A stretch of 64,000 nucleotides of DNA from positions 1-64,000 of the forward strand of contig JAHBSZ010000002.1 of assembly GCA_019638845.1 (NCBI GenBank). The letters are read 5' to 3'. Positions 26,780 to 39,592 of the stretch are shown piece by piece. The position numbers and the translations under genes are program-made. Numbering within the stretch: position 1 is the stretch's first letter; each line of letters starts with the position of its first letter. The notes beneath the pieces are model-generated. The model was not told the DNA's origin, ran no database searches, and saw only the letters and a program-made list of their open reading frames with translations. The stretch comes from Salinibacterium sp. (GTDB lineage: Bacteria > Actinomycetota > Actinomycetes > Actinomycetales > Microbacteriaceae).

Positions 26780-28162
26780 ATGCCCTTCGACCCGGACGAC
26801 TACACGGAAGCGCTCGATCGGGCCCGGGCTCATGCCGCTGACTGGTTGGGGTCCGTACCCACTCGACCCGTGCATCCGACCTCCACTGCCGACGAGCTGG
26901 CGACGCTCTTCGGGAGGCCGCTACCGGACTCCCCCACCGACCCGGCCACGGTGATCGATGAGCTCGTGACGACGGCCGAGCCGGGCCTGATGGCCATCGG
27001 TTCGGGTCGCTTCTTTGGTTGGGTGATCGGCGGCACGCTGCCCGCCGCACTCGCTGCCGACTGGATGGTCAGCACCTGGGATCAGAACAACGGCATGCGA
27101 TTCGCCACTCCTGCGACGGCAGCGCTGGAGGAGGCCGCCGGCGCGTGGCTGCTCGATCTTTTGGGTCTGCCTGCGGGCGCAGATGTCGGATTCACGACCG
27201 GTGGCACTTCGGCGAACATGGCCGGCCTCGCCGCCGGACGGGGCGAAGTGCTGCGCCGCGTCGGCTGGGATGTCAACGAGCGCGGCCTCCAGGGCGCCCC
27301 AGTGATTACCGTGCTCGCCGGTGAGCAGGTGCACGCGTCGGTGCTGCTCGCGCTGCGCTACCTCGGGTTGGGTGCGCCCCAACTGGTGCCCGCCGACGAC
27401 CAGGGCCGCATGCGTCCGGATGAACTCGCCCTCGCCCTCGCCGAGATCGACGGCCCCGTGCTGGTGGTGCTCCAAGCAGGAGAGCTACATTCCGGTGCGT
27501 TCGACCCGATGCGCGAGTGCATCGAGATCGCGCACGAGAACAGCGCGTGGGTGCACGTCGATGGGGCGTTCGGGCTGTGGGCTGCGGTCAGCCCGCGGTG
27601 GGCATCCGTACTCGACGGTCTCGACACCGCCGACTCATGGGCGACCGACGCCCACAAGACGCTCAACGTGCCCTACGACTGCGGGGTGGTGATCGTCGCC
27701 GACCCGAACGCCATTCGGTCGGCGTTCAGCGTTCGCACCGACTACCTCATCCACCCGGCCGAGGGTCGGGCCGACCCGTTCGACCTCGTGCCCGAGCTCT
27801 CGCGCCGCGCTCGCGGGGTTCCGGTGTGGGCGGCGCTTCGCTCGCTCGGACGTTCCGGGGTCATCGACCTCGTCGAAGGCCTCGCCGCGAACGCTCGCGC
27901 TCTGGCCTCGGGGTTGGCCGCTCTGCCCGGCGTCGAAGTACTCAACGACGTGGTGTTCACGCAGGTGAGCCTGTCGTTCGGAACCGACGAGCGCACCCGC
28001 GAAGTCACCGAACGCCTCATCGCCGACGGCGCAGTCTGGATGTCTGGCTCCCGCTGGCAGGGCCGCGCGGTGCTGCGCATCTCCGTGAGCAACTGGTCGA
28101 CGGATGCCGCGGACGTTGCCGCCTCGGTGGAGGCGGTTGCTCAGGCTATGCGGTCTAGCTGA
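26780..28162 (+). CDS. PLP-dependent decarboxylase (group II amino acid decarboxylase family)
   Basis: The 460-residue enzyme is a fold-type I PLP protein of the pyridoxal-dependent decarboxylase family. Visible elements are the cofactor-stacking GGTSANMAGLAAGR region, AGEQVHASVLLALRYLG, the aspartate in WVHVDGAFGLWAAV that holds the pyridine nitrogen, and the Schiff-base lysine in DAHKTLNVPYDCG. Members decarboxylate aromatic or acidic amino acids (tyrosine, tryptophan, aspartate, glutamate) to amines. The specificity is not readable, and no transporter is adjacent to suggest a substrate. Its end overlaps the convergent HicB-like gene by eight bases. Confidence 0.85.
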   Translation: MPFDPDDYTEALDRARAHAADWLGSVPTRPVHPTSTADELATLFGRPLPDSPTDPATVIDELVTTAEPGLMAIGSGRFFGWVIGGTLPAALAADWMVSTWDQNNGMRFATPATAALEEAAGAWLLDLLGLPAGADVGFTTGGTSANMAGLAAGRGEVLRRVGWDVNERGLQGAPVITVLAGEQVHASVLLALRYLGLGAPQLVPADDQGRMRPDELALALAEIDGPVLVVLQAGELHSGAFDPMRECIEIAHENSAWVHVDGAFGLWAAVSPRWASVLDGLDTADSWATDAHKTLNVPYDCGVVIVADPNAIRSAFSVRTDYLIHPAEGRADPFDLVPELSRRARGVPVWAALRSLGRSGVIDLVEGLAANARALASGLAALPGVEVLNDVVFTQVSLSFGTDERTREVTERLIADGAVWMSGSRWQGRAVLRISVSNWSTDAADVAASVEAVAQAMRSS

Positions 28163-28563: not shown

Positions 28564-29589
28564 CTAAAGAGCGAGCAGCCGCTCGGTGTCGCCGAACACT
28601 TCGAGCCCGGCACACTCCGCAACGCCCTCCAGCAGCACGACACCGTTGTGGTCGCTGTGCCGGAACTCGATGCGGGCATCCAAAGTCTCTTCGACCCGCT
28701 GGTGCATCGCCGTGCGCAGTGGAGCGTGCAGTAGTCCGCCGCGCACGCGCTCCGCAGTGAGCTCGAGCACACCGTCGGGGCCGCTGACCGACCAGCGCAC
28801 GTGGCTGTCGTCGATGCTTAGCGCGCGCTCGGTTGAGCGGTTGTACGTAGTCCATTTGTGCAGCCGCCCGCCGTGACGGAACCCGATGATCGACCCGCGG
28901 AACGACCCCCGGAGCCACGGGATGATCGCGACGGAGGCGATGAGTGAGGCATCCGTGCCGTCGCCCGTGGTGGTGTCGATGTGGTTGCTGGCCATCCATA
29001 CATACCCGGCCGGGAATGCTTTGCCCCAGTCTTTCTCGATGTAGCCGCGGCCCTGATCGAAGGATGTCGCGGCCCCCTCGACCTCGAGCGATCCCCGCAA
29101 CTCGTGGCCGAACGAGACGATGCCGTGGAAGCACTCCATGAACGGCACCAGTCCGTACCAGCCCATGATGCCGGGCTCGCGCGCCGTCACCGGCCACGGC
29201 ACCAGCGGCGTCGCGTAGTCGATGCGCCCCTTCAACTGCGGCAGGTCGAGGGTCACGCCCTCCGACGAGAACCGGTTGCCGCCGACCTCGACGTCGAATT
29301 CGCGATCGGATGCTCGGAACTCCTCGACCGGGAACCGGTGGTACCAGGAGCGGCCGGTTAGGCCGTCTAGGACTTGGACGAAGGCTTCGTCTTTTGTGCT
29401 GCTCTCGTTGGCTTGGTCGCCGCCGGTCGCGAGCCCGCGGAAGACGCCGGGGATGACCGCCCACCGCTGCGAGCGATCCGCCGACACGAGCTTGATGTAC
29501 CACCCCTCGAAGAACCCGCGCGTGACGCCGGTGCCGTGATAGGCCTCAGGGTGTTGGACGCCGCGGATGGTGGCGGCTGGGGTGCGCAT
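28564..29589 (-). CDS. Tocopherol cyclase-like (lipocalin-type) protein
   Basis: The 341-residue product matches the tocopherol cyclase-like family: HPEAYHGTGVTRGFFEGWYIKLVSAD at the N-terminus, AVIPGVF, then MGWYGLVPFMECFHGIVSFGHELRG and GYIEKDWGKAFPAGYVWMASNH. Plant tocopherol cyclase closes the chromanol ring, but bacterial homologues are found in organisms without tocopherol, so a lipid-related or carotenoid-like function is more careful. No signal peptide is visible. It is divergent from the reverse transcriptase genes, and marks the last ordinary gene before the low-GC region. Confidence 0.8.
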   Translation of the reverse strand: MRTPAATIRGVQHPEAYHGTGVTRGFFEGWYIKLVSADRSQRWAVIPGVFRGLATGGDQANESSTKDEAFVQVLDGLTGRSWYHRFPVEEFRASDREFDVEVGGNRFSSEGVTLDLPQLKGRIDYATPLVPWPVTAREPGIMGWYGLVPFMECFHGIVSFGHELRGSLEVEGAATSFDQGRGYIEKDWGKAFPAGYVWMASNHIDTTTGDGTDASLIASVAIIPWLRGSFRGSIIGFRHGGRLHKWTTYNRSTERALSIDDSHVRWSVSGPDGVLELTAERVRGGLLHAPLRTAMHQRVEETLDARIEFRHSDHNGVVLLEGVAECAGLEVFGDTERLLAL

Positions 29590-29883: not shown

Positions 29884-31302
29884 GTGATACTTGCGACTAG
29901 ACCGAGCTACGCTCAGTATTGTTGCCCGCACTCGCCGATCAGATTGGACCACTTGGACCAAACATTCTCGACGCGCAACCTTAGGAAGGCATGGGACCTA
30001 GAAACTAGGAAGGGAGTCAATCTCGCAAGAAGGCTCCAACTTCCCGGTGATCCTTCAGACATCCACCTGCAAGCGATAAAGGCAAATTACTCAAGCACCG
30101 CGCGGACCCGGAAAACAGTACGGGAATTGCGAAAGTCTGGCGCCAAACCCGACAAGATCCTGAAAGCAGAAGATCGGCTCAAGTCACTGAGAGCAAAGCG
30201 TGAAGACCTCGTGACGGCATTCGTCGGGCGAGTTCGCGATGCCCTAGAAGACCCAACCTTTGGGATCGGCATATCGGTGAGCTACCGAGCCAAGGGAGTC
30301 GACGTCTACCGACTCGACGCTCCATACGCGATCAACTTCATGGCCGTAAAGGCCTTGAGCCTCAATCTGCGGCGCGCTTTTTCAATCCGCCCATCGAGCC
30401 GCGACGATATCGTGAGCCAGGTAACTCGACTACTCAATGACCACTATCCAAAATCAGTCATCCGTGGCGACGTTTCTAAGTTTTACGAGTCAATTGATCA
30501 TTCCAGGTTGCTAGATACCTTGCGGGAAAGCTCAGTCTTAAGCACGGCTACACTCACCTTGATTGCCAAATTGCTGAAGAGCTACTCAGATATTTCGGGA
30601 TCAACGGTCGGCCTTCCGAGAGGAATCGGTCTAAGCGCGGACCTGTCTGAAGTGTTCATGCGGAGTCTGGACGCACATTTCACGCGACTTGATTCAGTAG
30701 TCTTCTACACCCGGTTTGTCGACGATATTTTGATTGTGTCCCATCCTGGCAACGGTGCAAACGTGTTGTCTGAACTCGACGTTCAGTTGTCGGCTCGAGG
30801 GCTAAGCCTCAACAGAACCAAAAGCAGCGTTCGCGAGATGGCGAACGACGGCACCCTGGCCCATATCCCGTTTCTTGGTTACTCGCTTGAATACCGCGGC
30901 CGACGCTTACTCGTCGGGCTGTCGCCAAACCGTCTCGAGAAAATCAAGCGTCGTCTGGACGCTAGTTTTGCGAGCTACACCGCCTCCCGCTCGCCGAGCG
31001 CAAAGGCGAAGACGATGCTGATGAAGCGGGTTAGGTTTCTGTCGACCAACACGCGACTCGCCAATAATAAGCGCCGTGCCTTTGTCGGAATTCGGTTCTC
31101 GAATCGATTTGTGAACGACCCGAGCCAACTCGCATCACTGGACGCAAGGTTGGCGGGCCATATCGCAACCTTGTCAGATGCCGCTCTCGCCAAGAAGCTT
31201 GGGACATATAGCTTCATACGAGGTTGGTCCGAGGGCACTTTCACCCGCCACCGTCTAACCGACTTCGAAGCCATCGCCAGCGCATGGAGGAAACTTGGCT
31301 AA
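29884..31302 (+). CDS. drt3a: Antiviral reverse transcriptase Drt3a-like (UG3-type)
   Basis: A 472-residue reverse transcriptase. Palm motifs are motif A RGDVSKFYESID (194-205; Asp196), motif B GLPRGIGLS (243-251), motif C FVDD (278-281, the catalytic Asp pair) and the following GLSLNRTKS and FLGY blocks. The opening LDQTFSTRNLRKAWDLETRKG resembles the start of known Drt3a/UG3 proteins. Family resemblance begins at about 29953 (TTG), so the true start may be TTG 29944 or 29953 rather than GTG 29884. The overlap with a second, different RT gene is the DRT type 3 arrangement, a phage-defence system working with a non-coding RNA. Base composition is visibly poorer in GC than neighbours, consistent with transfer. 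Confidence 0.85.
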   Translation: MILATRPSYAQYCCPHSPIRLDHLDQTFSTRNLRKAWDLETRKGVNLARRLQLPGDPSDIHLQAIKANYSSTARTRKTVRELRKSGAKPDKILKAEDRLKSLRAKREDLVTAFVGRVRDALEDPTFGIGISVSYRAKGVDVYRLDAPYAINFMAVKALSLNLRRAFSIRPSSRDDIVSQVTRLLNDHYPKSVIRGDVSKFYESIDHSRLLDTLRESSVLSTATLTLIAKLLKSYSDISGSTVGLPRGIGLSADLSEVFMRSLDAHFTRLDSVVFYTRFVDDILIVSHPGNGANVLSELDVQLSARGLSLNRTKSSVREMANDGTLAHIPFLGYSLEYRGRRLLVGLSPNRLEKIKRRLDASFASYTASRSPSAKAKTMLMKRVRFLSTNTRLANNKRRAFVGIRFSNRFVNDPSQLASLDARLAGHIATLSDAALAKKLGTYSFIRGWSEGTFTRHRLTDFEAIASAWRKLG

Positions 31303-33319
31303 ACGGCGAGTAGACGCGCCACGGAGCGAACACCGAGTGGTGCTATCAGATGTTCTTCCGTATGAGGTGCCCGCCCAGTACAGCAACCGACATTTCTACA
31401 AGTTCTTGGCGGACAACGCGGTTCGACTTGAAGGTACTGAAGTCAGTTGGCGAAGCAACTCGAACAAGACGCGGACAGTTGAGCTTGTACTCAAGCTCAT
31501 TTTTGGCATTGCGCCGAACGCAGCAATCAAACGACACCCCAACGGCAGGCGATCTTTCGCCTCAGTCGATGACAACACGATCCCCTTCAGCTTTCGCGTA
31601 GCGAAGTCAGAAAACGACTATCGAACGTTGTCGATTCCTCACCCGCGGAGCCAAATTCGGGTCTCGGCCTTCTACAGGGACGAGTATGCCGCGCTTCTGT
31701 ACTTCGCTGGAAAGAGTCCATTTTCGCTCCGCAAACCTGTGCGGGTAGGGAAGTACTCATTCGCCGAGGACCAACTCCACTCGCAACTCCGTGCGACTTG
31801 GGCCGCTGGCGTTTCCGAGAATAGCCAAGAGTACGAGACCTTCAAGTCGTACTTTGCATATGAACGATACTCGAATATCTACAAGTTCTACGAGTCGCCC
31901 GAGTATCAGGCCATGGAGAAGCGCTACAAGCATCTCCTCCGGCTGGATATCTCAAAGTGCTTTGAATCGATCTATACCCACTCGATCAGTTGGGCTGTCT
32001 ACGGCAAGGAACTCGTGAAGGATAACTATTCACGGAAATCTCGAACATTCCCAGAACGGTTCGATGAGCTAATGCAGAAGCTCAACTACAACGAGACGAA
32101 CGGGATACTCGTCGGGTCGGAGTTCGCACGCCTCTTTGCAGAGATCATTCTTCAGGCAGTGGACGGTGCTGTACTCCGCCAATTGGAGAAACTCGGACTC
32201 CGTCGAGGGAGGCACTTTGAAATTGTGCGGTACGTCGATGACTACTTTGTGTTCTTCGATCGCTTGGGTGACGAATCAAGAATCAAGGGCACAATTACGG
32301 AACAACTCAAGATTTATGGCCTCAGCCTCAATGGCGAGAAGGAGCTTCGGGGCGCAAATCCGGACATCACTCCCATCTCAATCGCAAAGAGCCGCATATC
32401 CCGCCTCTTGGAAGAGCGAATTGGTTCAGCGGCAGTTGCCAGTACTGCAGGTCGGCCCGGACTCATCTCGGGCGGCAAGTCGAGTACCGCCCTCATCACC
32501 GACTACAAGACAATTATCAAGGAGACCTCCGCCCCCGAAAAGGACGTTCTGAACTACACCCTTAGTATTCTCGAACGACGGATAGTCGAGGCTCTGAAGG
32601 AGTTCTCGAGTTTGAAGACAACCGACGGCGACGAAGAGGACCTCGCTGCGGCCATCGCCGCACTTGTGGAGTTTGCGTTCTTTATCTACAGCGCATCGCC
32701 GAAAGTTAATCCGACCGTGAAGCTGTGTCGAATCGTTGTCAATGTTTCGCAGTTTGCGATCAACAAGCCCTTCAGGGGTTCGCAAAGATCCAGGATCCTT
32801 GACGCGGTGTTTTTCGAGATTCGATCCCAACTAGAAAGATCTCACGGTGATGAGGACTTGCAAGTCGAAAAGCTCTACTTGCTTAGCGCCCTTGTCCCCC
32901 TCGGCCCTGCCTACTTGCTTCCTGCAGAGGAGATCGAGCGGATGTTCTCGATCGACGCCACTGGAAAAACTGCAGTGCTGCAAGCGCCGCTCAACCATTT
33001 TGCGCTCACCACCCTCCTTCACTACGTCAAACGTCAATCGAGATATACAGCGATTAGGCTTGTGGCAGAAGCCGAGTGGATAAGGCGTGTGAAGGAGTCA
33101 AGGGCTCACGATGCCGAGCGAGTCTTGCTCATCCTTGATGCAGCGTCCTCTCCATTTCTCAGTCAAGCTTCGAAATTGACTATCCTTCTTCACGCTGGGC
33201 TTACGGCGCGGAAGGACAGGTTTGGCGTGATGCGCCTCGCCCCTGCGTGGTTCACCCGGTGGCGCGGATTCGATCTCGGCTTAGAACTAGACCTCAAGCG
33301 AAATCAAGAAGTATATTGA
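31295..33319 (+). CDS. drt3b: Antiviral reverse transcriptase Drt3b-like (UG8-type)
   Basis: The 674-residue product is a second, distinct reverse transcriptase. Motif A is LLRLDISKCFESIYTHS (Asp218), motif B NGILVGSEFARLFAEI (269-284), motif C YVDD (313-316), then YGLSLNGEKE (341-350). About 300 residues follow as an alpha-helical C-terminal extension without a recognised nuclease motif. Translation starts at TTG 31295, inside the end of drt3a, with a strong GGAGG at 31286-31290 deciding the start. The pair matches UG3+UG8, the defining composition of DRT3. In recent work, as I recall it, Drt3b makes a repeat-sequence DNA strand complementary to the one Drt3a makes from the ncRNA. No integrase or transposase accompanies it. 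Confidence 0.85.
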   Translation: MAKRRVDAPRSEHRVVLSDVLPYEVPAQYSNRHFYKFLADNAVRLEGTEVSWRSNSNKTRTVELVLKLIFGIAPNAAIKRHPNGRRSFASVDDNTIPFSFRVAKSENDYRTLSIPHPRSQIRVSAFYRDEYAALLYFAGKSPFSLRKPVRVGKYSFAEDQLHSQLRATWAAGVSENSQEYETFKSYFAYERYSNIYKFYESPEYQAMEKRYKHLLRLDISKCFESIYTHSISWAVYGKELVKDNYSRKSRTFPERFDELMQKLNYNETNGILVGSEFARLFAEIILQAVDGAVLRQLEKLGLRRGRHFEIVRYVDDYFVFFDRLGDESRIKGTITEQLKIYGLSLNGEKELRGANPDITPISIAKSRISRLLEERIGSAAVASTAGRPGLISGGKSSTALITDYKTIIKETSAPEKDVLNYTLSILERRIVEALKEFSSLKTTDGDEEDLAAAIAALVEFAFFIYSASPKVNPTVKLCRIVVNVSQFAINKPFRGSQRSRILDAVFFEIRSQLERSHGDEDLQVEKLYLLSALVPLGPAYLLPAEEIERMFSIDATGKTAVLQAPLNHFALTTLLHYVKRQSRYTAIRLVAEAEWIRRVKESRAHDAERVLLILDAASSPFLSQASKLTILLHAGLTARKDRFGVMRLAPAWFTRWRGFDLGLELDLKRNQEVY

Positions 33320-33320
33320 T

Positions 33321-33500
33321 GGCGCGCACCCAGCTACTCGCGCCGTGACTCTGATCTGAAGCGTCGAAAACTGCAGTGTCGTTGCGGCTACACACCAGCG
33401 CGAACGGACTGTTCCATCAAGGTCCAGGACGGGGCCGAGCACACTGGGTCGCTCGGCCCAACCCGCCTGCCGCGGCCGTCATTTCGAGGCTGCGGCAGGC
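33321..33500 (+). ncRNA. Candidate DRT3 non-coding RNA (hairpin-rich, ACACAC)
   Basis: Directly after the drt3b stop is a gene-free stretch with a row of possible stems: GGCGCG/CGCGCC (33321-33344), GGAC/GTCC (33406-33425), GGGCCGAG/CTCGGCCC (33432-33459, loop containing CACAC) and a nine-base stem GCCTGCCGC/GCGGCAGGC (33465-33500). Between the first two is an exact ACACAC (33390-33395) in a small GCT/AGC loop. DRT3 systems use a structured RNA, and an AC-repeat template has been reported for Drt3a as far as I recall. The last stem may instead be the old gatB terminator. Ends are guesses; expression is untested. Confidence 0.45.
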
Positions 33501-33511
33501 ACAACCCGCTT

Positions 33512-33752
33512 CTACTCCACTGCGAAACCCGCCTGCTCCAGCACCAGCTCGCGCACCGGCGCGGCATCCGCTCTGCCCTGCATCGCCTTCATCACCGCAC
33601 CGATCACGGCACAGGCGGCCTGCACCTTGCCCTCGCGGATCTTCTCGGGCACGTCGCAGAGCCGCCAGCGTTTCGTCGATCACGGCGATGAGCGCGGTGC
33701 CATCCGACACCACCTCGAGTCCACGCGACTGCACAACCTCGGCCGGGGGTGC
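33512..33752 (-). pseudogene. Second, frameshifted copy of the gatB 3' end
   Basis: The minus strand encodes [29 protein letters not shown] and, after a two-base deletion near 33650-33660, [26 protein letters not shown] ... [14 protein letters not shown] and a stop at 33512. This aligns along its whole length with the last 78 or so residues of the intact gatB at 38078-38312, roughly 85-90% identical at the DNA level by eye. The C-terminal ending (AGFAVE versus ERAGQ) differs, so it is a diverged allele, not a recent duplicate. Upstream homology stops near 33752. Confidence 0.88.
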
Positions 33753-33781
33753 GCGCCGTATCCACAGCCTCCCGATATCAA

Positions 33782-33805
33782 GTGGACTAACCGATCTTAG
33801 TCCAC
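33782..33805. promoter_or_regulatory. Perfect inverted repeat, candidate Phd/VapB operator
   Basis: GTGGACTAA and TTAGTCCAC form perfect nine-base arms around CCGATC, ending 12 bases before the ATG of the antitoxin gene. Toxin-antitoxin complexes bind such repeats to repress their own operon. Position and symmetry make an operator likely. Confidence 0.65.
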
Positions 33806-33817
33806 CACCCTTAACCC

Positions 33818-34078
33818 ATGCGATCGGTCAACATCCATGACGCCAAGACCCACTTCTCGCGACTCGTCGACGACGTCGCTGAGGGTGAATCCGTCGTGAT
33901 CGCCAAGGCCGGCTCCCCCGTCGCCCGGTTGGTGCCCCTGGACGCGGAACCGAGCCGTCCGCGCAGCCTCGTGGGGTTCCTGAGCGGGCGGATCAGCGTC
34001 CCCGACGACTTCGACCGGATGGGTGCGGACGAACTCGCGGCACAGTTCGAGGGCGCGGGCCCCGCGGCATCCCGGTGA
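33818..34078 (+). CDS. Phd/YefM-family antitoxin (VapB partner)
   Basis: The 86-residue protein begins RSVNIHDAKTHFSRLVDDVAEGESVVIAKAGSPVARLVPL, a complete Phd/YefM DNA-binding domain. The C-terminal part (LVGFLSGRISVPDDFDRMGADELAAQFEG) is the usual toxin-neutralising tail of antitoxins paired with PIN toxins. The GTG start of the toxin overlaps its TGA by four bases (GTGA), giving coupled expression. The perfect repeat at 33782-33805 is a likely binding site for the complex. Confidence 0.9.
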   Translation: MRSVNIHDAKTHFSRLVDDVAEGESVVIAKAGSPVARLVPLDAEPSRPRSLVGFLSGRISVPDDFDRMGADELAAQFEGAGPAASR

Positions 34079-34461
34079 TCTACCTGCTCGACACCCAGCT
34101 CATCCTGTGGGCCGCGGCCGACTCTGACCGCCTAAGCGACACCGCGCGCGACCTGCTCACCGACGAAGCGAACGAGTTCATGTTCAGCTCGGCCGCAATC
34201 TGGGAGATCACCATCAAGTCGACGCTGGGGCGGTCCGATTTCTCGGTGGATGCCCGGCTCCTGCGCCGCGGACTGATCATCAATGGCGCACAAGAGCTCC
34301 CCATTACGAGCGAGCACGCTCTCGCCGTCACCGACCTCGCGCCGCTGGACAAGGATCCGTTCGACCGAATCCAGATCGCACAGGCGCGGGCCGAAGGGAT
34401 TGTGTTGCTCACCACCGACGAGACGGTGGCCGCGTATGGGGCTCCGGTGGAGTTGGTTTAG
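34075..34461 (+). CDS. PIN-domain ribonuclease toxin (VapC family)
   Basis: A 128-residue PIN domain protein. The acidic catalytic residues are in IYLLDTQLILW (Asp6), SAAIWEITIKS (Glu about 45) and LDKDPFDRIQIAQA (Asp about 99 and 103), with a closing LLTTDETVAAYG (Asp about 118). VapC toxins cut specific RNAs, often initiator or other tRNAs or rRNA, to stop growth. All acidic positions are intact, so the toxin looks active and is held in check by the overlapping Phd-type antitoxin. Confidence 0.9.
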   Translation: MIYLLDTQLILWAAADSDRLSDTARDLLTDEANEFMFSSAAIWEITIKSTLGRSDFSVDARLLRRGLIINGAQELPITSEHALAVTDLAPLDKDPFDRIQIAQARAEGIVLLTTDETVAAYGAPVELV

Positions 34462-34508
34462 GGAACTCGCCACGGTGACGCCAAGCCCACCCGGACTACG
34501 CTGCCCCT

Positions 34509-34883
34509 GTGAGTGAGATGGAGCCGCGGCAGCCGACCGAGGGCGAGGTAGCCCCCAAGCGCTTTCCCCAAGAAGTAGTGCCGGTCCCGATTGAGGATCT
34601 TCGAGAGTTGTTGGTTGAAGCCACCCGCAACACCACGCTCACAACCTTCTTCGGTCAGTTCTACACCGGCTGGATGTTGTTGGACATGAAACTCCGAGTA
34701 ACGCCGGTCGACTCTGGGCATACTCGAATCGAAGTCGAGGTGACGGGCAAGAATGGAATGTTCGACACCCTCCTGTTCGTGCAGCGTCGTAGTGCAATCG
34801 ATCGATTCTTCGTCGCGATACAGGACGAAGTCGATCGTCGGGCGCGATGGCGCTCCGACCCGCACAAGCCAATCGAGAACTAG
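34509..34883 (+). CDS. Hypothetical protein
   Basis: The 124-residue GTG-started protein is not recognised. It has a Pro/Glu-rich N-terminus, then FGQFYTGWMLLDMKLRVTPVDSGHTRIEVEVTGKNGMFDTLLFVQRRSAIDRFFVAIQDEVDRR, which looks like a small alpha+beta fold (a helix and two strands with a final helix). There is no signal peptide. Lying between two toxin-antitoxin modules, it may be part of the accessory cluster, but nothing ties it to either module. Confidence 0.55.
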   Translation: MSEMEPRQPTEGEVAPKRFPQEVVPVPIEDLRELLVEATRNTTLTTFFGQFYTGWMLLDMKLRVTPVDSGHTRIEVEVTGKNGMFDTLLFVQRRSAIDRFFVAIQDEVDRRARWRSDPHKPIEN

Positions 34884-34939
34884 ACCATCTGGGCGCGACC
34901 GTCAGGCGTAAAATCCGAAACACCCTGCCATTGTTCGTA

Positions 34940-34956
34940 TGTACAATCGACGTACA
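34940..34956. promoter_or_regulatory. Candidate operator of the DUF1778/GNAT module
   Basis: TGTAC and GTACA arms around a seven-base spacer lie just before the AAGGAG ribosome binding site of the DUF1778 gene. TacA-type antitoxins bind short palindromes at this place to repress their operon. Arms are only five bases, so this is a moderate guess. Confidence 0.45.
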
Positions 34957-34969
34957 AGGAGTGCACCCT

Positions 34970-35269
34970 ATGGCCACGACAAATCCCTCCGCGGTTGAAC
35001 GCGAGAACAAGGACTCGCGCATTAATGTGCGGCTCGCACCATCCCAGGCGACCCTCATCCGGCGCGCGGCGGAGGCGGACCACAAGAGCGTGAGCGAGTT
35101 CGTCATCAGTAGCGCTGCAACCGCTGCCGAGCACGTTCTCGCCGACCGCCGATGGTTCACCGTCGATGACGCGACCTGGCGTGCGTTCGAGGAGTTGCTC
35201 GAGCGTCCGGCGGAGTACAAGCCGCGCCTCGCCGAGTTGCTGGCCAGGGACACCCAATTCGTTGACTGA
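34970..35269 (+). CDS. DUF1778 antitoxin (TacA-like)
   Basis: The 99-residue product carries a ribbon-helix-helix DUF1778 domain: DSRINVRLAPSQATLIRRAAEADHKSVSEFVISSAATAAEHVLAD. The C-terminal part (FTVDDATWRAFEELLERPAEYKPRLAELLARDTQF) is the conserved tail that occupies the acetyl-CoA site of GNAT toxins. ATG at 34970 follows AAGGAG with eight bases spacing. The frame is open far upstream to 34847, but that part is not protein-like. Its stop overlaps the TTG start of the GNAT toxin by eight bases. Confidence 0.9.
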   Translation: MATTNPSAVERENKDSRINVRLAPSQATLIRRAAEADHKSVSEFVISSAATAAEHVLADRRWFTVDDATWRAFEELLERPAEYKPRLAELLARDTQFVD

Positions 35270-35780
35270 CCGCGCTAGGTTCGGGCGCCCGAGAAAGCTA
35301 GATCCAGCAGACCCGGTGCGCGAGTTTGGGTGCGGGCAGCCCGATCTGGACGAGTGGATCGGTCGCTACGCCCTCACGAGTCAGCAGTCCGGCATGTCGA
35401 CCGTGTTCGTCAGCACGTCGGCCTCGCGCATCGCCGGGTACTACGCACTCGCGACCGGCGGGATCGACTACGCGCAGGCCCCGGCGCGCGTCGCGAAGGG
35501 GGTGCCGCGGCATCCGGTGCCAGTCATTCTGTTGACGCGGCTCGCCGTTGACTCGCGGCATCAGGGCGAAGGTCTGGGCCGGATGCTCGTGGGAGACGCG
35601 CTCCTGCGCGTCGACCGCGCCGCCGCCGAGATCGGGGTGCGGGCGCTCCTCGTGCACGCGAAGGACGAGCACGCGCGGAACTACTACCTGCGGCTCGCCG
35701 AGTTCGAGCCGTCGCCGACCGACCCGCTGCACCTGTTTCTGTTGATGAAAGATCTGCGGAAGAGCATTACCGGGCTATGA
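35262..35780 (+). CDS. GNAT toxin (TacT-like aminoacyl-tRNA acetyltransferase)
   Basis: A 172-residue GNAT protein with the TacT-type features: REFGCGQPDLDEWIGRYALTSQQSGMSTVFV, GYYALATGGIDY, VILLTRLAVDSRHQGEGLGRMLVGDAL (acetyl-CoA loop RHQGEGLG), and LLVHAKDEHARNYYLRLAEFEPSPTDPLHLFLLMKDL. TacT toxins acetylate the amino group of charged tRNAs and block translation. The start is TTG 35262, overlapping the antitoxin stop, because the preceding in-frame sequence is a shadow of the antitoxin gene. The catalytic Tyr in NYYLR is present. Confidence 0.88.
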   Translation: MTDRARFGRPRKLDPADPVREFGCGQPDLDEWIGRYALTSQQSGMSTVFVSTSASRIAGYYALATGGIDYAQAPARVAKGVPRHPVPVILLTRLAVDSRHQGEGLGRMLVGDALLRVDRAAAEIGVRALLVHAKDEHARNYYLRLAEFEPSPTDPLHLFLLMKDLRKSITGL

Positions 35781-35795
35781 TTACCTATTAGTAAT
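35780..35795. promoter_or_regulatory. Inverted repeat upstream of XRE regulator gene
   Basis: ATTAC-CTATTA-GTAAT is a perfect five-base-arm repeat that starts at the last base of the GNAT gene and lies 18 bases before the GTG start of the XRE-family gene. It is AT-rich within GC-rich DNA, as expected for a promoter-overlapping operator of an autoregulating antitoxin. Confidence 0.5.
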
Positions 35796-35812
35796 GAAAT
35801 GAGGTGATTCAC

Positions 35813-36388
35813 GTGACCGCAGAGACTCTCGTGCGTAGTTCTCGCCGCGCCAGTCGTCTGAGCCAGAAGGCGCTCGGTGAGCGATCGGGTGTGGCCGCGT
35901 CATCCCTCTCCCTCATTGAGAGCGGAGACCGCATCCCCACGGTCGCCACGCTAGAGCGCCTGCTGGCGGCGACCGGACGGTCGCTCGTGAGCATCCCCAC
36001 CCGTCGTGCGGATACCGCAACCATCGCCGAACGTATCGCCGCCGCTGTGAGAGAGGGTGAGCCTGCCAGCGCGCTGCGCCACTTCATCCAACTCAACGAC
36101 AACCTCGCGGCGGAGCACCACGAAGTGCGGTTCGCACTCACGATCGCCGAACCGGCGCCGACCGGGGTCAAACATTGGGATGCTGCCATCGCGGCGCTCG
36201 TCGAATATCGGCTTCAGGAAGCAGGGCTGCCCGTCCCGGCGTGGACGCAGGATCCCTCACGCACGCTCCGCAAGTCGTGGACATTCACCGCCGGGCGCTA
36301 CGTCGTTCCGGTTGATCGTGCGCGTGTGCCGAAGTCGTTTCTCGACCGGAATGTGCTCATCGACGAGGACACACTGACGAGCTACTGA
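35813..36388 (+). CDS. XRE-family transcriptional regulator (antitoxin-like)
   Basis: A 191-residue protein with an N-terminal helix-turn-helix: LVRSSRRASRLSQKALGERSGVAASSLSLIESGDRIPTVATLERLLAATG (about 6-55). The C-terminal part (FIQLNDNLAAEHHEVRFALTIAEPAPTGVKHWDAAIAALVEYRL) recurs in regulators placed before nucleotidyltransferase genes. GTG at 35813 follows GAGGTGA. Its TGA overlaps the ATG of the next gene (TGATG). The pair resembles a regulator/nucleotidyltransferase toxin-antitoxin or AbiE-like unit. DNA target is probably the repeat at 35780-35795. Confidence 0.8.
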   Translation: MTAETLVRSSRRASRLSQKALGERSGVAASSLSLIESGDRIPTVATLERLLAATGRSLVSIPTRRADTATIAERIAAAVREGEPASALRHFIQLNDNLAAEHHEVRFALTIAEPAPTGVKHWDAAIAALVEYRLQEAGLPVPAWTQDPSRTLRKSWTFTAGRYVVPVDRARVPKSFLDRNVLIDEDTLTSY

Positions 36389-36948
36389 TGAGCCTCAATC
36401 GGGACGACCTGATCCGCGGACTCCGCGAGGTCGTTGCGCTGTTGCGCGAGCGCGGGGAGCCGGCGGGCATCCGTATCGTCGGCGGTGCCGCACTGTCGTT
36501 GCGTTACTTCGAGCGGCGCACCACCGAGGATGTTGATGCGAAGGTGCATCCGGTCGATGCGGCGCTGGCGGCCGCGGCCGACATCGGTGCCGCAAACGGT
36601 TGGCCCGAGGACTGGCTGAACACGAAAGCCGACCACTTCATCCCGATCGCAAACGACGTCGGGTGGGAGTCGCTTTACGTCGACGGCGATGTCAGCATCT
36701 GGGTGGCATCCGCGCCCGCCCTTCTGGCCATGAAGCTCCGCGCAAGCCGCGCGGGCCGTGATGATGACGACATCGCGAACCTGCTCGCAATCTGCAGTGT
36801 GGACAACGCCGTCGCAGCAGCCGATCTATACGAATCTTTCTACCTAGGCGAAGTGCTACCCGACAAGGCCGTGCGGATGCTCGGCGCGATCTTCACGAAA
36901 GGGTTGCCCGAGGTACCCGACAAGCCACCGCGACCCGACTTCGGCTGA
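36388..36948 (+). CDS. Nucleotidyltransferase-fold protein (DUF6036/AbiEii-like)
   Basis: The 186-residue product has a minimal nucleotidyltransferase signature: RIVGGAALSLRYFERRTTEDVDAKVHPVD (28-57), where the GGAAL loop and the TEDVDA acidic pair would hold nucleotide and metal. Then LLAMKLRASRAGRDDDDIANLLAIC matches the helical part of DUF6036/AbiEii-type enzymes. Known relatives pyrimidinylate tRNA ends as toxins (MenT, AbiEii). It overlaps the XRE gene by one base, consistent with coupled expression of an antitoxin and a toxin. Toxicity is untested. Confidence 0.75.
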   Translation: MSLNRDDLIRGLREVVALLRERGEPAGIRIVGGAALSLRYFERRTTEDVDAKVHPVDAALAAAADIGAANGWPEDWLNTKADHFIPIANDVGWESLYVDGDVSIWVASAPALLAMKLRASRAGRDDDDIANLLAICSVDNAVAAADLYESFYLGEVLPDKAVRMLGAIFTKGLPEVPDKPPRPDFG

Positions 36949-36993
36949 GCTGACTGCCCACCCCACGTCACACCCCGCTGCTACCGTAAGCGC

Positions 36994-38064
36994 GTGACCC
37001 ACCAGCTCACGCGCGACGAGGCCCGACGCATCGTCGTGCGCGCGCAGTTGCTGGATGCCGACCGCGCCGGTGACGTCGTCGAGGTGGCCGAGACGTTGGG
37101 TGCGATCAAGATCGATCCGACGTCGACGATCGCGCCGGCCGAGCACAGCATCCTCTGGTCCCGCATCGGCTTGGGTTACGAGCCGGTCCAGCTCTCGAAA
37201 GCGGTCGAGACAGATCGGCTGCTGTTCGAGTTCGATGGCGCGTTCCGCCCGATGAGCCTTCTGCCGCTCATGCTGCCCGGCATGCGGCGTTGGCCCCAGC
37301 GGGCGAGCACGCGCGAGTGGCTTGAGGCCAACGACAGCTTCCGCACGGACGTGCTGGCCCGGCTGCGCGCGGAGGGGCGGCTGCGGGCATCCGACATTCC
37401 CGACACCGCCACGGTGACCCGCCCGCCCGACGGTTGGTACGGCACCAATCAGGTTGTGCACATGCTCGACTTCTTGCAGCGGCAGGGGGAGGTCGCCGTC
37501 GTGGGCCGCGAGGGTCGCCACCGGCTCTGGGATCTGGCCGAGCGCGTCTACCCGCAGAACCTCCCCGAGTACGAACTCGAAGAAGCGGAACGGATGCTCG
37601 CCGAGCGCCGCCTGCAGGCGGCAGGTATCGCGAAGCAGAAGTCACCCTGGACCAGAGTGGGAATGGCGGGCGAGGCCGCCACGGTCGAGGGCAGCTCGTG
37701 GAAGTTTCGCGTCGACCCGGAGGCCATCGCCGCACTCGACGACGACCCCGGCGGTCGCGTGGCCTTGCTCAACCCGTATGACGGCATGCTGTTCGACCGC
37801 CCGCGCCTGAAAGAGCTCTTCGAGTTCGAGTACGTTCTTGAACAGTTCAAGCCGAAACCGCAGCGCAAGTACGGCTTCTTCGCGTATCCGATCCTCATGG
37901 GCGACCGGTTCGTCGGGATGCTCGACGCCGCGGCATCCGACGACAAGCTCACCGTCAACGCGGTGCACGAGTTTCTGCCGTTCGACGCTGAGGAAGACGA
38001 GATGGTGCGCGCCGAGATCGCGGACCTAGCGCAGTGGCTGCAGGTTGACGTATCAGCGTGGTGA
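36994..38064 (+). CDS. YcaQ/AlkZ superfamily winged-helix protein (HTH_42)
   Basis: The 356-residue protein belongs to the winged-helix DNA-binding superfamily of crosslink-repair glycosylases: RDEARRIVVRAQLLD, EHSILWSRIGLGY, RRWPQRASTREWL, GTNQVVHMLDFLQRQGEVAVVGREGRHRLWDL, LLNPYDGMLFDRPRLKELFEFEYVLEQFKPKPQRKYGFFAYPILMGDRFVG. AlkX/YcaQ enzymes use a Gln-hydrophobic-Asp motif before the SILWSR block, but here it reads KID (Lys39-Asp41), so the glutamine is replaced. The protein may have lost glycosylase activity or act differently. Its stop is 13 bases from that of gatB; the genes converge. Confidence 0.78.
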   Translation: MTHQLTRDEARRIVVRAQLLDADRAGDVVEVAETLGAIKIDPTSTIAPAEHSILWSRIGLGYEPVQLSKAVETDRLLFEFDGAFRPMSLLPLMLPGMRRWPQRASTREWLEANDSFRTDVLARLRAEGRLRASDIPDTATVTRPPDGWYGTNQVVHMLDFLQRQGEVAVVGREGRHRLWDLAERVYPQNLPEYELEEAERMLAERRLQAAGIAKQKSPWTRVGMAGEAATVEGSSWKFRVDPEAIAALDDDPGGRVALLNPYDGMLFDRPRLKELFEFEYVLEQFKPKPQRKYGFFAYPILMGDRFVGMLDAAASDDKLTVNAVHEFLPFDAEEDEMVRAEIADLAQWLQVDVSAW

Positions 38065-38077
38065 CCCGCCAGAAGCG

Positions 38078-39592
38078 CTACTGCCCCGCCCGCTCCAGCA
38101 CCAGCTCGCGCACGCGCGCGGCATCCGCCTTGCCCTGCATCGCTTTCATCACGGCGCCGATCACGGCGCCAGCCGCCTGCACTTTGCCTTCGCGGATCTT
38201 CTCGAGCACATCGGGCTGAGCCGCCAGCGCTTCATCGATCGCGGCGATGAGTGCAGTGTCATCCGACACCACTTCAAGCCCACGCGACTGAACGACCTCG
38301 GCCGGCGTGCCCTCGCCAGCGATGACGCCTTCGAGTACCTGTCGCGCGAGGCGGTCGGTGAGGGAGCCCATGTCGATAAGGAGCGCGAGCTCCGCCACAT
38401 GGGTCGGCGACACCAAGGTCGACGAGTCGACGGATGCCTCGTTCGCAAGCCGCGCGATCTCGCCCGTCCACCACTTCCGGGCGGCCGCCGGGCTCGCGCC
38501 CGCCGCCACCGTCTCCTCCACCTCAACGAGGAGGCCGGAGTTGACCACGTCCTGGAACTCGAGGTCCGTGAAGCCCCACGCCTGCTGCAGTCTCTTCTTA
38601 CGGATTGACGGCGCCTCGGGGAGGGCGGCACGCAACTCCTCGATCAGCTCGAGAGAAGGTTCAACGGGAAGGAGGTCGGGTTCTGGGAAGTATCGGTAGT
38701 CATCAGCATCGCTCTTGGGGCGCCCGGCCGAGGTCACCCCCGTGTCCTCGTGCCAGTGGCGCGTCTCCTGGGTGATCGTGCCGCCCTTTTCGAGAATCGC
38801 CGCTTGGCGCTGAATCTCGTAACGGATCGCGCGCTCGACGGAGCGCAGGGAGTTCACGTTCTTGGTCTCGGTGCGCGTACCCAGCGTGCCGGAGCCGCGG
38901 GGGCTGAGCGAGATGTTCGCGTCGCAGCGGAGGTTGCCGCGCTCCATCTTCGCTTCGGAGATGCCGAGCGACACGACGATGTCACGGATGGCGCTGACGT
39001 ACGCCTTGGCGAGCTCGGGGGCATCCGCCTCGGCGCCCGTGATCATCTTCGTGACGATCTCGACGAGGGGAACGCCCGCGCGGTTGTAGTCGACGAGCGA
39101 ATACTCGGCGCCCTGGATGCGGCCGGTCGCGCCACCCACGTGGGTGAGCTTGCCGGCGTCCTCCTCCATGTGGGCGCGCTCGATCTCGATGGTGAACGTC
39201 TTGCCGTTGGCGAGTTCCACCTCGACCTGCCCATCGAACGCGATGGGCTCGTCGAACTGGCTGATCTGGTAGTTCTTGGCGAGATCTGGGTAGAAGTAGT
39301 TCTTGCGAGCGAAGCGGCTGGATGACGCGATCGAGCAGCCGAGCGCGAGACCCAAGCTGATCGAATACTTGATCGCCTGCTCGTTCACGACGGGAAGGGA
39401 ACCGGGCAGTCCGAGATCCACCGGGGTGATCGTCGTGTTCGGCTCGTGGGCCACGTTGCCTGCCGCAGCGGGGTTCGGGGCATCCGAGAACATCTTCGTC
39501 TGGGTGTTGAGCTCGACGTGCACCTCGAAGCCGAGCACCGGCTCGTACAGTTCGAGAGCGCGGTCGTAATCCATCAGGTCAGCTTTAGCCAC
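38078..39592 (-). CDS. gatB: Asp-tRNA(Asn)/Glu-tRNA(Gln) amidotransferase subunit B
   Basis: The 504-residue protein begins [32 protein letters not shown], has the [15 protein letters not shown] and [21 protein letters not shown] blocks, the [14 protein letters not shown] and [14 protein letters not shown] blocks of the kinase domain, and a YqeY-like C-terminal tail ([20 protein letters not shown]). GatB activates Glu or Asp on misacylated tRNA and accepts ammonia from GatA. It is usually contiguous with gatC and gatA; here about 4.4 kb of other genes intervene, and its 3' end has a degenerate second copy at 33512-33752. Confidence 0.97.

Follow-up and report, generated by a model that had tools for sequence, protein, structure and literature searches.

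DRT3 systems pair two reverse transcriptases (RTs), a UG3 enzyme (Drt3a) and a UG8 enzyme (Drt3b), and a UG8 RT is found next to about 97% of UG3 RTs (PMC8934634). Part of the DNA synthesis by DRT3 does not depend on a nucleic-acid template, and the published study links control of the system to RecBCD. In the characterised system from E. coli (EcoDRT3) a non-coding RNA (ncRNA) with an ACACAC template is encoded downstream of drt3b; E22 and R241 of Drt3b gate dA and dC, R71 and D182 take part, the YVDD motif is catalytic and Y666 primes the DNA. EcoDRT3 cannot be maintained if any one RecBCD subunit is missing and is triggered by the phage protein Gam (PMC13174585). Here we analyse a DRT3 locus in a stretch of 64,000 nucleotides (nt) from Salinibacterium sp. 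(Microbacteriaceae; contig JAHBSZ010000002.1, positions 1 to 64,000), referred to as the window. The locus is a genuine, complete DRT3, i.e. a known kind of system that an earlier note on this DNA named correctly and whose template RNA has now been located. We are highly confident that it is a complete, probably functional operon that was probably gained horizontally and works by an EcoDRT3-like mechanism. What makes it notable beyond annotation is the group to which its Drt3b belongs, the occurrence of such systems in hosts without detectable RecC, and a nucleotide constraint at the priming codon.

The two overlapping open reading frames described earlier, 29884-31302 (472 codons from GTG) and 31295-33319 (674 amino acids), are both present. 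They are adjacent on the + strand and overlap by 8 nt, and both frames are open, drt3b having no internal stop. The profile searches that the earlier note had named as a check matched both families: Drt3a scores 310.7 bits against the curated NCBI profile NF041747 (cut-off 200), Drt3b 615.9 bits against NF041748 (cut-off 350) over profile positions 1-647 of 647, and the corresponding PADLOC profiles give 1.9e-94 and 6.1e-176. In PADLOC, Drt3b reaches 585 bits with the Drt3b profile as compared to 158 for Drt6, 131 for Drt4 and 89 for AbiK. Pfam finds one RVT_1 domain in each protein, and Drt3a matches the Drt3a of PDB 9z6y with 6.3e-17. The family match of both proteins is thus far beyond chance and bears out the call of DRT type 3 (UG3 + UG8), as both exceed the curated cut-offs and all other listed RT families score far lower. 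Neither protein has its best match in group II introns, retrons or another UG clade, and the UG3/UG8 pairing is present; an identity as group II intron, retron or other UG enzyme was rejected, the scores being much lower than those for Drt3a and Drt3b. The catalytic pairs are intact as reported, FVDD at Drt3a 278-281 (D280, D281) and YVDD at Drt3b 313-316 (D315, D316), as are the motif A aspartates (Drt3a D196, Drt3b D218), and the catalytic aspartates are invariant across the alignments (16 Drt3a rows, 15 Drt3b rows). For Drt3a a frame from GTG 29884 does exist, but the likelier start is TTG 29953, giving 449 amino acids (MDQTFS...), because most relatives begin around M(L/I)DQ(S/T)FS. Consequently, we place drt3a, encoding the UG3 RT that is predicted to be RNA-templated, at 29953..31302 (+), based on NF041747, PADLOC and the start in the alignment of relatives, and drt3b, encoding the UG8 RT with a helical C-terminal part that is predicted to be protein-primed and protein-templated, at 31295..33319 (+), based on NF041748, the kept residues and an AlphaFold model.

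The third component was overlooked earlier. An ACACAC template lies at 33390..33395 (+), 70 nt past the drt3b stop codon, inside the conserved box ACACACCAGCGC (33390-33401), and the predicted template ncRNA extends over 33320..33465 (+) with approximate ends. The operon is thus complete, as had been claimed without the ncRNA, but the extent given for it, 29884-33319, is too small, as the ncRNA lies downstream at ~33320-33465. The 12-mer ACACACCAGCGC occurs once in the window (0.01 expected) and in 6 of the 98 loci fetched, which correspond to five distinct DRT3 loci: the window itself (fetched twice, as L001 and L083, and counted once), L002, L003, L004 and the E. coli plasmid locus L017; among the 98 loci it is restricted to DRT3. 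An AC tract is found within 222 nt after drt3b in all 19 DRT3 loci first compared, and such a tract follows drt3b in all 27 loci of an enlarged set, in which near-copies are counted and in which, as in later analyses, L133 replaces L017 with its split gene. ACACAC or CACACA occurs in the first 80 nt after drt3b in 14 of the 19 loci, whereas shuffled sequences would give 1.77 and, elsewhere in these loci, such a tract is present in 38 of 1761 80-mers. Downstream of the template a strong hairpin (33432..33459, +) may form a 3′ element of the ncRNA: among 50-nt stretches past the template it gives the best hairpin (-31.6 kcal/mol), which 0 of 30 shuffles reach, and it is the sole one that stands out. 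No terminator-like site was reported at this position, and a second inverted repeat follows at ~33465-33500. A scan of the window at Rfam gathering thresholds gave 0 matches, anchored alignments of DRT3 loci gave inconsistent helices, and in alignment A3 the helices are not lined up. Hence, the template is well supported, whereas the predicted structure and the ends of the RNA are not. An ncRNA upstream of drt3a, where ACACA occurs at ~29760, was dropped as a candidate, since the tracts of the relatives lie downstream. A divergent, DRT3-like locus of the same family (L007, genome G298) has the tract TCACACA, the terminal residues IY and an ATA codon.

To relate the residues of Drt3b to those of the characterised enzyme we checked the numbering on the locus of E. 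coli F404 (L130), whose Drt3b matches PDB 26cz over all 667 residues and has E, R, D, R, YVDD and Y at positions 22, 71, 182, 241, 276-279 and 666. All six features are kept in the window, i.e. E24, R110, D218, R279, YVDD and Y674 occupy the positions of E22, R71, D182, R241, YVDD and Y666. Y674 is the final residue of Drt3b and invariant in alignment A1 (15 rows). Exceptions occur in L022, which has D at the E22 site and IDD for VDD, and in L024, which has N for R71; the rows of L013 and L017 are incomplete and thus uninformative on E22, R71 and, for L017, D182. The AlphaFold model of Drt3b (mean predicted local distance difference test score 77.4) consists of helices from around residue 397 up to the C-terminus, and its best Foldseek matches are DRT4, UG15, AbiK and DRT6 (E 1.3e-11 to 2.6e-9, TM-scores of ~0.45-0.51 by query length), with no DRT3 structure among the 50 matches listed. 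Such a fold would be expected of a class 1 enzyme that contains helical repeats. A product different from that of other DRT3s, as suggested earlier for an actinobacterial version, finds no backing, as the ACACAC template and the protein-templating residues are the same as in the E. coli system, and there is no actinobacterial trait in the RNA either, since the distance of the template differs from EcoDRT3 but is common to DRT3s of other phyla. In its predicted chemistry the DRT3 of the window thus appears ordinary.

Based on these findings the system may operate as follows. The ncRNA, encoded immediately after drt3b, would be bound by Drt3a, which would copy its ACACAC repeatedly into poly(dTdG), while Drt3b would prime from its C-terminal Y674 and add alternating dC and dA without a nucleic-acid template, gated by R279 and E24. 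Both strands would then anneal to repetitive double-stranded DNA, which a host nuclease would clear until a phage disables this nuclease, whereupon the cell would arrest. This analysis provides the genes and their residues, the conserved template, the group of Drt3b and, as discussed below, the AdnAB-type pair and the undetected RecC; the chemistry and the abortive outcome are taken over from EcoDRT3 (PMC13174585), and we infer by analogy that this mechanism also operates in the host of the window.

The operon was probably gained horizontally. As observed earlier, its GC content is lower than that of the flanks (0.53-0.54 over 30-33 kb as compared to 0.60-0.70 in the other 1-kb blocks), and GC at third codon positions is 0.62-0.63 in the operon genes as opposed to 0.86 (28564-29589), 0.86 and 0.84 (33818-34461), 0.87 (36994-38064) and 0.86 (gatB). 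This composition, which is unlike that of the host, is in line with the proposed transfer, as is the distribution in the genus: none of the 9 congeners listed has a Drt3b match, 17 other genomes of the genus being outside that search. In the family sample, Drt3b exceeds the cut-off in 6 of 398 genomes, including that of the window, G298 staying below with 315 bits; in the class and phylum samples, which overlap with each other and with the family sample, the numbers are 1 of 394 and 1 of 296, both being the window's own genome. The search of viral contigs gave 4 stretches that match a pattern but no relative, and phage records gave 9 partial RT matches, none covering 80%. A literature search found no paper on UG3/UG8 defence in Actinobacteria and just an unrelated one for DRT or RT defence in Microbacteriaceae; as most subscription papers were outside the search, this is no proof of novelty.

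The guard model presupposes that the host encodes RecBCD. RecC was undetected in all seven genomes of this family that encode a DRT3-like Drt3b (above the cut-off in six, below it in G298), the host of the window included, the E. coli control being positive and RecB and RecD not being searched; it was also undetected in 3 of 3 Bacteroidota hosts of DRT3 that are metagenome-assembled genomes, whose completeness is not given. Since RecC is undetected, another nuclease must act as guard here if the mechanism holds. All seven same-family genomes contain two PF12705 matches with starts 3.2-4.4 kb apart. In the window's host, the only genome for which the comparison with structure chains was made, this pair matches two chains of 6ppj, 6ppr, 6ppu and 7sjr over nearly the full length (best E 5.2e-150 and 1.1e-117). 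We take these entries to be mycobacterial AdnAB (the database listing names them helicases), so that by sequence the pair is AdnAB-type. These matches fit the actinobacterial host named earlier, as does GatB, whose best match in the plasmid collection is an Arthrobacter record (65%). AdnAB would be the obvious candidate for taking the part of RecBCD in this host. A third PF12705 match in the genome (G000:C1:774587-775141, L054) is weaker and unpaired. The main text of PMC13174585 contains none of the terms 'actino', 'AdnAB' and 'AddAB'.

The Drt3b proteins fall into two groups. In a tree of 24 proteins a branch supported at 100/100 separates 8 long-leader loci, whose template follows drt3b at a distance of 91-221 nt, from 16 short-leader loci, where this distance is 24-73 nt; as the tree is unrooted, the split does not show which side, if either, is a clade. 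The near-copies L012, L131 and L132 were left out of this tree and of the promoter test described below, and a second tree was also calculated without L005, L007 and L024. The long-leader side includes EcoDRT3 of 26cz, while the short-leader side includes the window and spans Actinomycetota, Bacteroidota, Campylobacterota and Pseudomonadota. With two long-leader members the Drt3b of 9z6y reaches 301.8 and 284.4 bits as compared to 214 with the window and 226.5 with L133, suggesting that it also belongs to the long-leader group. Drt3a has 444-482 amino acids in short-leader loci (449 in the window) and 398-424 in long-leader loci, based on chosen or annotated start codons and with L013, L099, L101, L102 and L104 outside the comparison.

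In the short-leader group the end of drt3b appears to be constrained at the nucleotide level. In the window a candidate ncRNA promoter, TAGACC-18 nt-TATATT, lies inside the end of drt3b (33288..33317, +), its -10-like hexamer spanning the codons of Val673, the priming Tyr674 and the stop; it is the one promoter-like site in the 4.3 kb scanned, where 1.5 would be expected by chance. Short-leader drt3b genes often end in GTA-TAY-T, so that TATAYT extends from the Val codon over that of the priming Tyr into the following codon or stop. Val is found at column V673 in 15 of 16 short-leader loci and is coded by GTA in 11 and GTT in 4 of them, never by GTG or GTC, which makes V673 rank 2 of 170 columns for codon identity beyond codon usage (z 5.73, 0/1000 draws); three other Val columns give no such signal. 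V673 is not unique in this respect: F281 ranks higher, and S141, L286 and S225 come next, with no explanation found, although the high serine columns S141 and S225 may reflect the two codon sets of serine. Phe281, the column with the strongest bias, is coded by TTT in 15 of 16 short-leader genes. The combined -35/-10 score over the last 15 codons of the 16 short-leader loci is 133 as compared to 121.7 +/- 2.7 for synonymous versions (0/400), and the -10 part alone gives 75 as compared to 66.8 +/- 1.7 (0/2000), whereas the 8 long-leader loci have no excess over the synonymous null (131/400; -10 part 821/2000). In both the codon and the promoter statistics the short-leader loci share ancestry and are thus not independent draws. 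The best -35/-10 match falls on a shared position in 8 of these 16 loci, where its spacing is 18 nt and 8-10 of the 12 positions agree; the remaining 8 have it elsewhere or with a different spacing.

Several observations weigh against the EcoDRT3-like mechanism and the RNA on which it would depend. In a DRT3 the template would be expected in a loop of a structured RNA, but the fold of 33320-33465 is unremarkable (z -0.42, 61 of 200 shuffles equally good), as is that of 33345-33425 (z +1.01, 174 of 200), and 63 of 100 shuffles equal the hairpin just before the template. Identity to Drt3b of the window is 26-38% for the other Drt3b rows, the 26cz enzyme being outside this alignment, and because of this low identity the predicted identity of the product rests on residues and template. 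Finally, the first tree did not resolve the placement of the window, later trees grouping it with the same-family DRT3s (97/99, 98/96). The unremarkable local fold, together with the fact that ACACAC occurs 7 times in the window, might suggest that the tract at 33390 is coincidental and that the true ncRNA lies elsewhere or is absent. We consider this extremely improbable: the exact 12-mer occurs just once, at the correct place and on the correct strand, and in every other DRT3 locus compared drt3b is followed by such a tract within 222 nt. The system could also be silent or non-functional in this host, e.g. due to recent import, lack of a suitable guard nuclease or an unexpressed ncRNA. The composition of the operon is not yet host-like, RecC, a subunit of the complex without which E. 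coli does not tolerate EcoDRT3, is undetected, and upstream of drt3a the promoter scan, limited to the sigma-70 consensus, gave no site. Nevertheless, frames, active-site residues and template are all intact, which would be unexpected for long-silent DNA. Moreover, hosts without detected RecC do maintain DRT3, since six further same-family genomes (five above the cut-off) keep a DRT3-like Drt3b with AC tracts. A silent system is thus unlikely in our view, and we favour a working, EcoDRT3-like operon.

What causes the constraint at the end of drt3b is less clear-cut. We infer that a promoter is the likeliest cause; the main rival, which concerns the embedded promoter only, is that the conserved GTA-TAY-T marks an ncRNA whose 5′ end lies inside drt3b, and to this we give somewhat less than an even chance. 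The codon bias points to a nucleotide constraint without revealing what lies behind it, several loci have a weak -35-like match, and the Bacteroidota share the hexamer although they normally use a different promoter consensus. The match with the same position and 18-nt spacing in 8 of the 16 short-leader loci, however, is what a promoter would give, and the 8 long-leader loci lack the excess. If the constraint does reflect a promoter, its position and that of the template could serve as a simple guide to the ncRNA of short-leader DRT3 loci, whose RNAs a covariance model built from relatives of EcoDRT3 may not reach. Combining these points, we speculate that there are two DRT3 groups with different RNA layouts, that in the group of the window the promoter of the template RNA lies inside the last drt3b codons with the priming-Tyr codon being part of the -10 box, and that actinobacterial DRT3 guards AdnAB instead of RecBCD. 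This joint proposal is tentative and, taken as a whole, rather doubtful; if it is true, phage inhibitors of AdnAB would trigger actinobacterial DRT3.

The operon lies next to gatB. A displaced gatB 3′ end (33528..33746, -), just beyond the predicted ncRNA, is 86% identical to the intact gatB (38078..39592, -) with a 2-nt gap, and the 3′ end of the intact gene borders a variable region. The cargo between the two (33818..38064, +; assigned by Pfam) is not part of the DRT3 and comprises a Phd/YefM-PIN pair, a TacA1-GNAT pair, an XRE regulator with an AbiEii/DUF6036-type nucleotidyltransferase and an AlkZ-like protein; here PADLOC gave weak helix-turn-helix-type matches for one protein only. The decarboxylase gene to the left of the operon (window 26780-28162) and gatB are 0.7 kb apart in the congener G1054 and ~39 kb apart in G1056, and in G1057 a remnant of a tocopherol-cyclase-like gene is less than 0.3 kb from the gatB remnant as opposed to 5 kb, with DRT3, in the window. 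Displaced gatB 3′ pieces of at least 97 nt also occur in G1057 and G282. Within ~4 kb of the gatB 3′ end other congeners have Gabija-like (G1045), LmuB-like (G1055) and PDC-M28C-like (G282) genes, in a scan of 10 chosen proteins of which 4 had any match. Because of the displaced gatB pieces, the flanking gaps of 0.7 to ~39 kb and the defence-like cargo, the gatB 3′ end looks like a defence insertion hotspot in the genus, as seen in the window and in L089, L092, L093, L094 and L096. The end of the gatB remnant and the Phd/PIN pair (33673-34461) recur at 90.5% in G1057 (L092 8272-9063) and seem to move as one block. The window's DNA matches 26 records of the plasmid collection, mostly in toxin-antitoxin genes among the 8 matches listed; the genera named there all belong to other phyla, and the records gave no taxonomic placement of the host.

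Among known systems, the class 1 UG/Abi polymerases DRT4, UG15, AbiK and DRT6 resemble Drt3b of the window in fold, with modest TM-scores; to our knowledge they are single-RT systems without a Drt3a partner. The same-family loci L002, L003 and L004 (genomes G011, G267 and G259) resemble the window in that they have related hosts, the same box, undetected RecC and the paired PF12705 genes. Their Drt3b and Drt3a, however, are just 35-36% and 30-33% identical to those of the window, so that they would hardly go back to the same recent acquisition.

The other E. coli type of DRT3 (L133, strain GYB01), found in nine genomes with a query coverage of at least 80%, is also similar to the window: it has a short leader, ends in VY-stop, has a Drt3a of 449 amino acids and contains the box ACACACCAGCGC, as seen in its plasmid copy L017. 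It differs in belonging to another phylum and in sharing ~36% Drt3b identity (plasmid copy), and its E. coli host is expected to have RecBCD. In the E. coli plasmid CP083496, drt3b (L017 4001-6044) is split into two reading frames, and seven chromosome-sized E. coli records carry a stretch that is at least 99% identical and annotated as drt3a and drt3b.

EcoDRT3 (PDB 26cz; L130, E. coli F404, 667 amino acids) has the same gene order, drt3a-drt3b-ncRNA, the same ACACAC template and identical key residues. The 26cz-type loci L129 and L130 lie beside a tyrosine integrase, in L130 adjoining tRNA-Thr, and their neighbours are presumably P4-like genes (phage polarity suppression, ogr/Delta-like), i.e. 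a phage-satellite location. EcoDRT3 and the window, however, are on opposite sides of the 100/100 Drt3b split, the template follows drt3b after 128 nt in EcoDRT3 and after 70 in the window, Drt3a has 398 as compared to 449 amino acids, the priming Tyr is the last but one residue as compared to the last, and RecC is undetected in the window's host. Thus, as a complete DRT3 outside the 26cz clade in a genome without detected RecC, the locus is well suited for asking whether all DRT3s make the same product sequence and whether the role of guard is specific to RecBCD or open to any nuclease that acts on double-strand ends.

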